Positions 59,710 through 63,835 of a stretch of DNA of 64,000 nt are shown here, piece by piece (position 1 is the stretch's first letter; every line of letters starts with the position of its first letter). The stretch covers positions 558,001 to 622,000 of the forward strand of contig NZ_CP082286.1 of NCBI RefSeq assembly GCF_019880245.1, given 5' to 3'. Made by a program: the position numbers and the translations under genes. The notes beneath the pieces are model-generated. The model was given only the letters and a program-made list of their open reading frames with translations, had not been told where the DNA came from and did not search any database. The DNA is from Halobaculum roseum (GTDB taxonomy: Archaea; Halobacteriota; Halobacteria; Halobacteriales; Haloferacaceae).

Positions 59710-61068
59710 CTACTCCTCGCTTCCCTCTTCCTCCTCCTCGTCGCTCTCGGGGTCACGACCCTCGTCGGCACGCCGCTGCACGTCGACGCGGTAATGCTGG
59801 AGGATGTCGCGTCCGAGAAGCACGGGATACTCCATGTGCGAGCGGTCCTCCACGCTGGCGGTGACCGTGTGTTGCTCGCCGCCGATGCCGACGACGAGGT
59901 CGACGACCGGTCGAGCCTTCCCCGACTTCACGGAGCCGGACTTGATCCGGGTCATGCTCTTGATCGGGCCGGCGCCGATCTCGGCGGCGAGCTTCGTGTC
60001 GATCGACGAGCGCGTCGCGCCGGTGTCGGACTTGGCGAACGCCTGGGTCGACCCCCGCGTACCGGCCACGTGGACCTCCTCGATGTAGCCGATGAGCGTG
60101 GTCTGGCCGTCGTTGATCCGGCGCTGAGGCGGCATGCACGCCGGCGTCGAATCGTCGAGCACCGCCGACAGCTCGGCGACGCTGTCGTCGTCGACGGCGC
60201 CGCCGCCGCGCTCGATCGCCAGCCGAGCGATGTGGGGAGCCGGCGAGCGGCCGCTCGCCTTGAACAGCCCCTTGAACCCGGCGGTGGGGTTGACCTCCAG
60301 TACGTACCACCCGTCGTACCCCTGCACGAGGTCGACGCCGGCGTAGTCGAGGCCGATCGTCTCGGTCGCGTCGAGCGCCATCTCCCGCACCTCCTCGTCG
60401 AGGGTCCCGGTCGCGTCCTCCACGTCGCCGCCGAGCGCGACGTTGGTGCGCCAGTCGCCCTCCGGCGCGTAGCGGTTCATCGCGGCGACGACCTCGCCGC
60501 CGACGACGTACACGCGGGTGTCGTGGTGGCGCTCGTCGTCGCGGTCGATGAGGTCCTGGAGGAACGCCTGTCTGTTCCCGACCATCGGGTTGACCGGCTC
60601 GTCGAGGGGGATCTTCCAGGTACCGCCGCCGTGGGTACCGATCGCGGTCTTGTACACGCCCTCCTCGCCGAAGCGGGCGCGGCCCTCGTTGAGGCGGTCG
60701 TTCGACAGCGCCAGCAGCGCGTCCGGCACGCGGATGCCGGCCTCCGCCAGCGCGACGGCGGAGGCGAACTTGTGCATCGCCGTGAGCACCGCGGACGGAT
60801 CGTTGAGGACCGGTCGCGCGCGGCCGAACGTGTGGGCGAGCCCGAGCCCCTCGGCCGGCTGTTCGATGTTCGACAACAGCATCCGGTTGGCGATCACGTC
60901 GACCTCCGGCTCGATGGTTACTTCGCCGTCCTCGATGCTGACGGCCGCGTTCTCGCGACGGAGCCACACGGGCTCGTGACCGAGCGCCTCGATCGCGTTG
61001 CAGATAGCCTTCGTCTCCTTGCTCGTGTGCAGCGAAAGTACGCCGACGCGTACCGGATCTCCACTCAT
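59710..61068 (-). CDS. RimK-type ATP-grasp ligase fused to a retropepsin-like domain
   Basis: A 452-residue fusion. Residues 1-290 are ATP-grasp of the RimK type: MHKFASAVALAEAGIRVPDA, a nucleotide-binding Lys140 (VYKTAIGTHGGGTWKI), and metal-binding Glu258 and Asn260 (VLEVNPTAGFKGLF). Residues about 310-430 form an aspartic-protease-like domain with Asp348-Thr-Gly (AKSDTGATRSS) and the hydrophobic strand VLLGRDILQHYR. The end is an acidic tail. RimK-like ligases add amino acids, typically glutamate, to a carboxylate, and the small pepsin-like partner in bacteria is separate (RimB). The ATG is about 27 bases from GTCAAATG read leftward. Divergent from the metallohydrolase gene. Confidence 0.85.
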   Translation of the reverse strand: MSGDPVRVGVLSLHTSKETKAICNAIEALGHEPVWLRRENAAVSIEDGEVTIEPEVDVIANRMLLSNIEQPAEGLGLAHTFGRARPVLNDPSAVLTAMHKFASAVALAEAGIRVPDALLALSNDRLNEGRARFGEEGVYKTAIGTHGGGTWKIPLDEPVNPMVGNRQAFLQDLIDRDDERHHDTRVYVVGGEVVAAMNRYAPEGDWRTNVALGGDVEDATGTLDEEVREMALDATETIGLDYAGVDLVQGYDGWYVLEVNPTAGFKGLFKASGRSPAPHIARLAIERGGGAVDDDSVAELSAVLDDSTPACMPPQRRINDGQTTLIGYIEEVHVAGTRGSTQAFAKSDTGATRSSIDTKLAAEIGAGPIKSMTRIKSGSVKSGKARPVVDLVVGIGGEQHTVTASVEDRSHMEYPVLLGRDILQHYRVDVQRRADEGRDPESDEEEEEGSEE

Positions 61069-61090
61069 ACAAACTGACTCGTCGGCGGCG

Positions 61091-61098
61091 TCAAATGT
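61091..61098 (-). promoter_or_regulatory. TATA-like box of the RimK-like fusion gene
   Basis: Reading leftward the box is CATTTGAC, 23-30 bases before the start codon. Confidence 0.4.
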
Positions 61099-61220
61099 GT
61101 CCCGGTCGACCGAACGGCGTGCGAACCGGGATCACGCGCCGCCGGTCGACCCGTCGCCGTGCGGTCCGTCAGCCTGGTGGTCTGTCCGCCGGTCGGGCCG
61201 TCAACCGACCGGCCGACGCG

Positions 61221-61230
61221 GTAGTTTATC
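61221..61230 (+). promoter_or_regulatory. TATA-like box of the succinylglutamate desuccinylase-like gene
   Basis: GTAGTTTATC lies 25-34 bases before the ATG, giving the divergent pair separate promoters. Confidence 0.45.
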
Positions 61231-61254
61231 ACGCTCGGTCGCACACCGGCGATC

Positions 61255-62277
61255 ATGACCGACGCCGACGCCTTCACGTACAACGGGGGCCGGGTGGACC
61301 CGGGGGAGCGACAGAACATCCGGTTCGTGGTGTCGGAGACGTACCTCGGCGACCCGGTCCGGATCCCGGTGACGATCATCAACGGCGAGCGACCGGGCCC
61401 GACGGCGTTCCTCTCGGCGGCCGCTCACGGCGACGAGCTCAACGGCATCGAGGTCGTCAGGGAGGTCGCCCACGAGTGGGACCTCTCGGAGCTGTGCGGG
61501 ACGATCATCTGTCTGCCCGTGTTGAACGTCCCCGGGTTCCTCGCCCAACAGCGCTACCTCCCGGTGTACGACCGGGACCTGAACCGCTCGTTCCCCGGGT
61601 CGGCCGACTCGACGAGCGCCAAGCGGATGGCCGCGCGCATCTACACGAACTTCATCGAGCCGTGCGACTTCGGCCTCGACTTCCACACGTCGACGCGAGG
61701 GCGGACGAACATGATCCACGTCCGCGCCGACATGGGCGACCCCGACGCCGCCCGCCTCGCCCGTGCGTACGGGACGAACGTCATCATCGACAGCGAGGGC
61801 GCCTCGGGGATGCTCCGGACGGAGGCGGTGACCGACGACATCGCGGCGATCACCGTCGAGATGGGCGAGGCACACCGCTTCCAGCGGGCGCTCATCGACG
61901 AGGCGCTCTCCGGGGTTCGGTCGACGTTCGCCGAGTACGGCATGCTCGAGGCCGAGCAGGTCCGCTGGCCCGGCTGGCGGACCGTGATCACCGAGGAGCG
62001 CGAGAAGACGTGGCTCAGAGCCGACGCCGGCGGGATGGTCGACATGCACTTCGAGCGGGGGTCGCTGGTCCACGAGGGGGACACCGTCTGCACCATCACG
62101 AACCCGTTCAAGAACGACAACGCCCCCGTCGAGGCCCCCTTCACCGGACTCCTCGTCGGGATCCTCGAGAACCCGGTCGTGTACCCCGGGAACCCGCTGT
62201 GTCACCTCGTCGAACTCGACGAGCGGACCCGGCGGGTGGTCGAACTCGACCAGAGCCCGTCCGGGACGGTGGGGTAG
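61255..62277 (+). CDS. Succinylglutamate desuccinylase/aspartoacylase family metallohydrolase
   Basis: A 340-residue zinc-dependent hydrolase of the M14-related AstE/AspA family. Zinc ligands are His58 and Glu61 ([10 protein letters not shown]) and His144 (LDFHTST); DLNRSFPG (108-115) and the candidate general-base Glu in [10 protein letters not shown] complete the active site. The C-terminal 80 residues form a beta domain ([20 protein letters not shown]). It cleaves an amide at a terminal carboxylate. Its divergent neighbour is an ATP-grasp ligase, so it may remove what the ligase adds. No signal peptide is present. Confidence 0.87.
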
Positions 62278-62290
62278 CCGGCCGACCCGT

Positions 62291-63238
62291 TCACTCGACG
62301 ACGCGCAGGTCGGGAGCGACGACGACACCGCTCCCTCCCTCCGGCGGCTCGAAGACGACGGTCCCGTCCTCCCGCGGGGACGCCGACCACGTGATGAACT
62401 CGCCGAACCGCCGCCAGGCGGCCTCGCCGGCGGCGGTCGGTTCGGCGGGTTCGCCCCGCCGCTCGGGACGGGCGTCGATCCCGTCGGCCCCGGGGTTCCC
62501 GAACAGCGGATGGGTCACGCGCCCCCTGCCGCACGTCTCGCAGACGACCTCCGCGAGGACGGGATACGCGGCGTGACAGTCGGGACAGATCCCGTCGCGG
62601 TCGTGGTCGAGACACTGCCTGAGCCGGCCGTCGACGACGCCCCCACACTCCAGACAGATCCCGTCGACCATGGGCCGCAGCCGGCGTTCGAACACTCGGT
62701 GTGCCCGCCGGAACAGCGGGGTCGGATCAAGCTGTTCGACGGCCGTCGGCGGAAGGACGATCCCCGTGAGCGTCCCCGAGGGGCACTCGTCGGCGCCGAA
62801 GAGTCCCTCGCAGGCCGAACAGCAGGTGAACAGGTGATGGTCGGCGTAGATCACGTGTACGTCGCCGCCGCAGCGGGGACACCGCGCGTCGACCGGCTCG
62901 GCCTCGAGGTCGGCGTCGCCGTCGACGATGCCGCGTTCCAAGAGTCGAACCGTCTCCCGGCCGGGTTCGAGCAACCGGTAGCCGCCCGGCGTCTTCTCGA
63001 CGAACCGCCCGACGAGCTTTCCGAGGTGGTAGCCGAACTTCCCGCTGTCGCGCTCCCCGACGGCGCGGCGCAGGTCGCTGTAGGCCATGGGGTCGGTCCG
63101 GGGACCCGCACGCTCCTCGTGTTCGGCGAGCACGCGGAGGATCGACAGCCGGAGGTCGTCGCCGAGAAAGGAGAACGCGTCGACCGCGCGTTCCGTCGAC
63201 CGATCGGTCACTACCGCCAGTGCGGTGCACGGCGGCAT
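62291..63238 (-). CDS. ArsR-type winged-helix regulator with zinc-ribbon domains
   Basis: A 315-residue protein. The N-terminal 100 residues form a winged helix ([40 protein letters not shown]). The middle carries zinc-finger-like pairs: [12 protein letters not shown] with [24 protein letters not shown] with [12 protein letters not shown], and VCETCGRGR. The C-terminal part is acidic and beta-rich. It is likely a DNA-binding regulator that senses something through a Cys-rich domain. A GTG 21 bases upstream could extend it. It is divergent from sdhC. Confidence 0.8.
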
Positions 63239-63373
63239 AACGTTCACGCAGTCGGACACCTTCGCCGAGCCCTCGGCGATCCGGCGGTAGAGGTCGTTCT
63301 CGGTGTCTCGTTCGGCCGGTCGAGGGCCCGACCCCGCGGCGATCGGCCCCGCGGGCGTGCGAGTGCGTCACGT

Positions 63374-63384
63374 AACTACTATAC
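63374..63384 (+). promoter_or_regulatory. TATA-like box of sdhC
   Basis: AACTACTATAC lies 26-36 bases before the sdhC ATG. Confidence 0.5.
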
Positions 63385-63409
63385 CCCCATAGGACGGAGC
63401 CACGGACGT

Positions 63410-63835
63410 ATGAGCCAGTCGTATGACAGGGGCCTCGTCGAGGACTTCGGTCGGTGGCGGGAGTTCTCGGCGGGGATGTGGGCCTGGGTGTTCCACAAGT
63501 TCACGGGCTGGGTGCTCGTGGGCTACCTGTTCACCCATATCGCCGTGCTGAGTACCGCCATCTCCGCGGCCGGGCAGACGCAGCGGATCGCAGCCGAGAA
63601 CGACGTGTACACGATGGTCATCCAGAACCTCGAGAGCCTGCTGGTCGTCCGCATCCTCGAGGTCGGGCTGCTCGCGGTGGCCGTCTTCCACATCCTGAAC
63701 GGCTGCCGGCTGCTGCTGGTCGACCTGGGGATCGGGCTGGAAAGCCAGGACAAGAGCTTCTACGCGTCGCTGGTGCTGACGGGCGCCATCGTCGTGGCGT
63801 CGGTGCCGACGTTCCTCTCGGGGGTGTTCGGCTGA
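63410..63835 (+). CDS. sdhC: Succinate dehydrogenase cytochrome b-556 subunit
   Basis: A 141-residue membrane anchor subunit with three hydrophobic helices. [20 protein letters not shown] contains the first conserved His, and [20 protein letters not shown] contains the second, which ligates heme b, followed by a final helix ([20 protein letters not shown]). It anchors the succinate dehydrogenase complex and passes electrons to quinone. Its stop overlaps the start of the next gene (TGATG). The iron-sulfur and flavoprotein genes would follow outside the window. Confidence 0.93.

Follow-up and report, generated by a model that had tools for sequence, protein, structure and literature searches.

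Which function would be served by a ligase and a protease joined in one polypeptide and encoded back to back with a zinc hydrolase? This question is raised by a locus within a 64,000-nucleotide stretch of Halobaculum roseum DNA, which is called the window here. A sequence-only reading of the window had described one protein with both an ATP-grasp fold (Lys140, Glu258, Asn260) and a DTG motif (Asp348), divergent from an AstE/AspA zinc hydrolase. The coordinates, domains and residues of the fusion are all as it described (Table 1), and the neighbour was correctly assigned.

Table 1. Features of the fusion gene, its divergent neighbour and the region between them; positions are those of the window.
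Feature	Position	Strand	Basis
Fusion gene, 452 aa: RimK-family ATP-grasp ligase (N-terminal) and retropepsin (C-terminal)	59710..61068	-	ORF, Pfam
ATP-grasp region, PF08443, residues 98-275	60244..60777	-	Pfam; K140, D246, E258, N260 invariant in 41 orthologues
Retropepsin-like domain, residues ~323-433 (PF05618 matched at 369-433)	59770..60102	-	Pfam, alignment
DTG catalytic triplet, D348-T349-G350	60019..60027	-	Sequence, orthologue alignment
Divergent intergenic region, 186 bp	61069..61254	.	Sequence
AstE/AspA-family zinc hydrolase, 340 aa (PF24827), DoeB-like fold	61255..62277	+	Pfam, profile, structure match
H58-G-D-E61, predicted zinc ligands	61426..61437	+	Invariant in AstE alignment
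H144, predicted third zinc ligand	61684..61686	+	Invariant in AstE alignment
E202, predicted general base	61858..61860	+	Invariant in AstE alignment

The N-terminal part of the fusion matches PF08443 (E 3.6e-26, 92.4 bits against a cut-off of 21) and just passes the threshold of TIGR00768 (144.4 against 143.4 bits), which makes it a member of the RimK-like ATP-grasp family. The C-terminal part belongs to PF05618, with a match of 42.8 bits (E 6.2e-11, cut-off 27) and a DTG triplet. Pfam labels this family 'zinc protease'; those of its members that have been characterised are aspartic proteases of the retropepsin type (PMC11957791, PMC12239564), and the latter reading fits the fusion because it carries the D-T-G-A motif, D348 sitting within K-S-D-T-G-A. 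Across all 41 aligned orthologues, K140, D246, E258, N260, D348-T-G, R386, R409 and R420 are invariant. The AlphaFold2 model of the fusion reached a pLDDT of 85.7 and a pTM of 0.78, with low confidence in the interdomain stretch 317-321 and the acidic C-terminus; for both this protein and its neighbour, the input alignments were built without sequences from plasmid records. A Foldseek search with the whole fusion returned ATP-grasp matches alone among its top 50, and the retropepsin fold is assigned from the sequence and from the strands predicted for it.

The divergent neighbour matches PF24827 (AstE_AspA_cat; E 9.3e-44, 149.7 bits against a cut-off of 25), and its H58, E61, H144, E202 and N110-R111 do not vary among 31 AstE sequences of haloarchaeal, methanogen and bacterial origin. 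Its AlphaFold2 model (pLDDT 84.9, pTM 0.84) finds its nearest fold in DoeB and a more distant one in CphZ, whose PDB annotation is cyanophycin dipeptide hydrolase. Because these are its nearest folds, the role of a finishing hydrolase is reasonable for AstE. The protein scores 97 bits against the DoeB equivalog TIGR02994, under the cut-off of 402.7. A TTTATC motif lies ~27-30 bp 5' of its ATG, as in leaderless haloarchaeal promoters, which it resembles.

The same three kinds of protein occur unfused elsewhere. In Methanosarcinaceae, RimB (155-169 aa), RimK (~301 aa) and AstE (~348 aa) are encoded consecutively, with minimal gaps or short overlaps, and, by record annotation, Vibrio, Salinivibrio, Acaryochloris and Phaeobacter plasmids carry the same rimB-rimK-astE trio. 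When bacterial and archaeal genomes were scanned, 52 of 80 RimB loci had both RimK and AstE nearby, a proportion that describes loci picked by similarity to a methanogen RimB alignment and is not a population frequency. The haloarchaeal locus is most likely a divergent, fused version of this three-gene cassette of bacteria and Methanosarcinaceae, and the three-activity module predates the haloarchaeal fusion and extends beyond it. In the openly licensed literature searched we found no description of the trio or of the haloarchaeal fusion, and no paper treating AstE as part of a rim system.

What might such a module act on? RimK ligates Glu to ribosomal protein S6 and also makes poly-alpha-Glu, and RimB cleaves poly-Glu or polyglutamylated protein and stimulates RimK (PMC11957791, PMC7343187). 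The Pseudomonas aeruginosa protease RloA cleaves stretches of at least eight Glu; its K46, R114 and R137, placed around D48, contact poly-Glu and are also present in RimB (PMC12239564). In our alignment with PDB entries 9g59/9g58, these residues correspond to K346, R386 and R409 of the fusion. The Arg-Arg spacing (R386/R409 and R114/R137) is 23 residues in both, K346 lies two residues before D348, and while R386 and R409 occur in 41/41 orthologues, K346 is kept in 90% or more of the rows aligned. Since the fusion retains these poly-Glu-contacting Lys and Arg residues and their 23-residue spacing, its retropepsin domain probably cleaves acidic peptides. The target is another matter. The sequence-only reading had looked to a ribosomal protein by analogy with S6, and this did not hold: PF01250, the profile for S6 (bS6), had no match in any of nine archaeal carrier genomes, including that of H. 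roseum, and the control was positive in ten bacteria. S6 was thus rejected as the target for the nine carriers tested.

Our model, to which we assign a probability of about 0.5, is a reversible acidic-peptide system in which the ATP-grasp domain ligates Glu, the retropepsin clips and the zinc hydrolase finishes. The ATP-grasp domain would add an acidic amino acid, probably Glu, via alpha-peptide bonds to an acceptor. As a dimer, the retropepsin domain would make endoproteolytic cuts in the resulting acidic stretch, and AstE, whose Asn-Arg pair seems suited to gripping a terminal carboxylate, would remove the remaining terminal residue or hydrolyse short products. Between them, the three activities would determine how long an acidic peptide on a non-S6 acceptor becomes and would also erase it; this acceptor could be the tail of a protein or else free oligoglutamate. 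The analysis establishes the domains, the conserved catalytic residues, the linkage, the co-loss described below and the lack of an S6 match in nine carriers; all catalytic activities are inferred, as are Glu as the donor, the preference of the protease for acidic stretches, the exo role proposed for AstE and the nature of the acceptor. The invariance in orthologues of the catalytic residues of all three activities counts for the model, and the addition, trimming and removal envisaged by the sequence-only reading are plausible. Several points count against it, among them that a protease that cuts poly-Glu is awkward within the acidic haloarchaeal proteome, that AstE could prove to be a simple deacylase and that the bacterial RimBK hybrid assayed in vitro gave no S6 ligation (PMC11957791). 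We regard as rather doubtful the more ambitious proposal that haloarchaea reversibly modify a non-S6 protein with acidic peptides by means of a single write-and-cut enzyme and a zinc hydrolase dedicated to erasing. Such a system, spread through nearly the whole class and with an origin separate from that of the bacterial RimBK hybrid, would be a prokaryotic equivalent of polyglutamylation of the tubulin type.

The alternative that survives best, improbable but worth serious attention, is that the acceptor is not a protein at all. The module would then make and recycle free oligo- or poly-alpha-glutamate, or some other acidic peptide, that buffers Glu or serves as an osmotic device; the retropepsin would be the endo-hydrolase and AstE a dipeptide or terminal hydrolase. 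Cyanophycin provides a parallel, since its synthetase is an ATP-grasp enzyme and separate hydrolases degrade it, and the AstE model resembles CphZ. RimK indeed produces poly-alpha-Glu and is stimulated in this by RimB (PMC11957791), RloA proteases are required in hypo-osmotic medium (PMC12239564), and S6 is unmatched in the nine archaeal carriers. MscS-type channels adjoin some trio loci as well; however, a gene of this type lies within the retrieved flanks of just 13 of the 80 RimB loci (a raw count), and no channel is found beside the main haloarchaeal locus. The channel genes beside rimB-rimK-astE were seen in Vibrio, Salinivibrio and one methanogen (L107, L110, L112, L072), where a role tied to mechanosensitive channels is suggestive; it was set aside as not conserved elsewhere.

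The ligase itself differs from RimK in several respects. It scores 70.9 bits against the RimK equivalog NF007764 (S6--L-glutamate ligase), below the cut-off of 331, and in the alignment its acceptor loop reads WRTNVALGG, compared with RSNxHRGG in true RimK. In the tree of ATP-grasp domains, the haloarchaeal fusions form a single deep clade (support 100/99). The methanogen RimKs are nested within the bacterial trio RimKs, which suggests that they were acquired from bacteria, whereas the haloarchaeal ATP-grasp domains are not; a RimBK hybrid from Thioclava groups with bacterial RimK. Because the loop differs and the clade is deeply separate, both donor and acceptor may differ from those of RimK. 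The sequence-only reading had also stated that the two activities are separate proteins in bacteria. This has to be revised, as RimB-RimK hybrids are known (PMC11957791), and the unusual feature of the haloarchaeal protein is its reversed order: in a survey of 249 Pseudomonadota genomes, all five RimB/RimK fusions examined had RimB first. The reversed order and the separate clade disfavour descent from a bacterial RimBK hybrid and favour an independent fusion, with the qualification that the haloarchaeal branch is long, so that the root of the tree is uncertain and an ancient shared cassette may lie behind both.

For AstE, a first tree with long branches did not settle the relation between haloarchaeal and trio sequences. 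In a pruned tree, from which the long branches had been removed, the partner AstE joins the trio AstE, apart from other haloarchaeal paralogues, with a support of 93/95 that is under the tool's starred threshold. These results bear on another reading, in which the ATP-grasp domain is a biosynthetic ligase like LysX, ArgX or MptN, acting on a carrier protein or cofactor, while AstE releases or deprotects an intermediate and the retropepsin processes the carrier. Foldseek ranks LysX/ArgX level with RimK for the ATP-grasp fold, MptN and LysX are the best NCBIfam matches of the fusion after the RimK subfamily, and the acceptor loop is unlike that of RimK. However, the scores are far under the MptN and LysX equivalog cut-offs, there are no conserved biosynthetic genes beside the pair, and the AstE partner falls in the clade of the rim trio. 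We consider a biosynthetic ligase distinctly unlikely.

A search for fusions and their neighbours across haloarchaeal genomes found that the two domains co-occur and that the pair is conserved, as the sequence-only reading had expected. The full-length fusion is present in 132/145 haloarchaeal genomes and a matching AstE in 133/145. Given this spread of full-length homologues and the residues invariant in 41/41, the fusion is neither a chance product nor a broken gene. Among the matches listed, where a copy scored as lacking a partner may in fact have a weaker AstE match nearby, an AstE lies within 6 kb of at least 127 of the 150 fusion copies (paralogues included), 125 of these pairs being divergent; counted by genome, at least 124 of the 132 fusion carriers hold a close pair and at least 122 a divergent one. 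Twelve of the 13 haloarchaeal genomes that lack the fusion also lack the matching AstE, and they span nine genera and six families. Since four of these nine genera have other members with both genes, the losses have been repeated. A naive Fisher test of the co-occurrence, in which the kinship of the genomes is ignored, gives 1e-16. Duplicated fusion-AstE pairs were found elsewhere, several of them plasmid-borne, and Haloferax volcanii, a control genome, has both PF05618 and PF24827 matches. The divergent pairing, the co-loss and the unfused, adjacent trio in Methanosarcinaceae and bacteria together support the earlier suggestion of a single module made up of the three activities.

At most of the chromosomal haloarchaeal loci that were examined (window 61255-63835, L087-L106), the succinate dehydrogenase genes sdhCDBA adjoin the pair. 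The gene order is sdhCDBA - astE - fusion - alkA, with the HhH-GPD neighbour conserved in most chromosomal loci examined, so that part of the linkage between fusion and AstE may be inherited synteny. It is nevertheless very unlikely that AstE is functionally unrelated and just part of this stable order: both flanking neighbours are kept in most of these loci, and one genome (G110, L103:4819-5019) retains an intact AstE beside a mere 67-residue remnant of the fusion, but against this stand the co-loss in 12 genomes of nine genera, the duplicated pairs that lie apart from sdh and the side-by-side trio of Methanosarcinaceae and bacteria. Between astE and sdhC, the window has a DUF7347/DUF7351 gene. 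At two loci of the f4 family (L089:5372-7949, L100:5270-7809), ~2.8 kb separates astE from the fusion, a stretch that contains a GNAT/DUF5816 gene together with one resembling a polysaccharide flippase gene.

Some haloarchaeal genomes carry extra copies of the fusion. Two paralogues (L070:5935-7308, L099:4839-6170) have lost the DTG, reading N-P-A and E-P-V, and retain the ATP-grasp residues; with no AstE found in their retrieved flanks, they are candidate pseudoproteases. The AstE-less copies L070, L099, L102 and L104 read ARGG in the acceptor loop, and AstE-paired copies ALGG; the correlation is incomplete, as L093 and L101 read ALGG with no AstE in their retrieved flanks. On a Natribaculum luteum plasmid (NZ_CP095398.1:654559-654894), the region under a hypothetical protein matches the retropepsin part alone in tblastn (35%) and may encode a stand-alone haloarchaeal retropepsin. 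Seven methanogen loci (L054-L058, L060, L062) encode a second, more distant PF05618 type of ~180-200 aa (profile 25-138), and their retrieved flanks match neither RimK nor AstE. Among Pseudomonadota, one protein (L280:1134-2528) has a C-terminal PF05618 after ~290 residues without a Pfam match, and two of 650-660 aa (L285:1694-3652, L286:467-2461) contain several weak RimB-like repeats, with one good repeat at the C-terminus.

RimK and RimB have hitherto been studied as a bacterial S6 modifier. These two enzymes, accompanied by a conserved third one, also occur across an archaeal class in which the search for S6 found none. This implies a different acceptor, and the bacterial rimB-rimK-astE cassette may likewise have a non-S6 acceptor. 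Haloferax volcanii is genetically tractable, and with ligase and protease in one polypeptide beside the putative third enzyme, the question is directly testable there.

Compared with known systems, the new element here is a rim ligase/retropepsin pair that is reversed and fused, is nearly class-wide in haloarchaea and has an AstE partner in common with the bacterial and methanogen cassette. With Pseudomonas RimK/RimB (RimABK) and the RimBK hybrids it shares a RimK-family ATP-grasp, a PF05618 DTG retropepsin, the catalytic residues and, in some cases, their union in one polypeptide. The hybrids, reported in 2025 (for example Desulfotalea DP2392), run from RimB to RimK, and the one assayed in vitro showed protease activity and no S6 ligase activity (PMC11957791); the haloarchaeal order is RimK then RimB. 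The haloarchaeal protein further differs from bacterial Rim in its separate ATP-grasp clade, acceptor loop, shorter retropepsin and AstE partner, and in the lack of an S6 match in archaeal carriers. RloABC of P. aeruginosa (PMC12239564) likewise combines a PF05618 retropepsin with an ATP-grasp protein and shares the poly-Glu-contacting Lys and Arg residues, but RloA is secreted and separate, and the operon includes RloB, an inactive transglutaminase membrane protein of which no counterpart was noticed next to the haloarchaeal pair. DoeB (N-acetyl-diaminobutyrate deacetylase) and CphZ have fold and zinc site in common with the AstE neighbour, at ~22% and ~14% identity, respectively. The closest counterpart is the rimB-rimK-astE cassette of Methanosarcinaceae, Gammaproteobacteria and others, which has the same three kinds of protein and the same AstE subfamily; the cassette is unfused and co-directional, whereas the haloarchaeal locus is fused and divergent.
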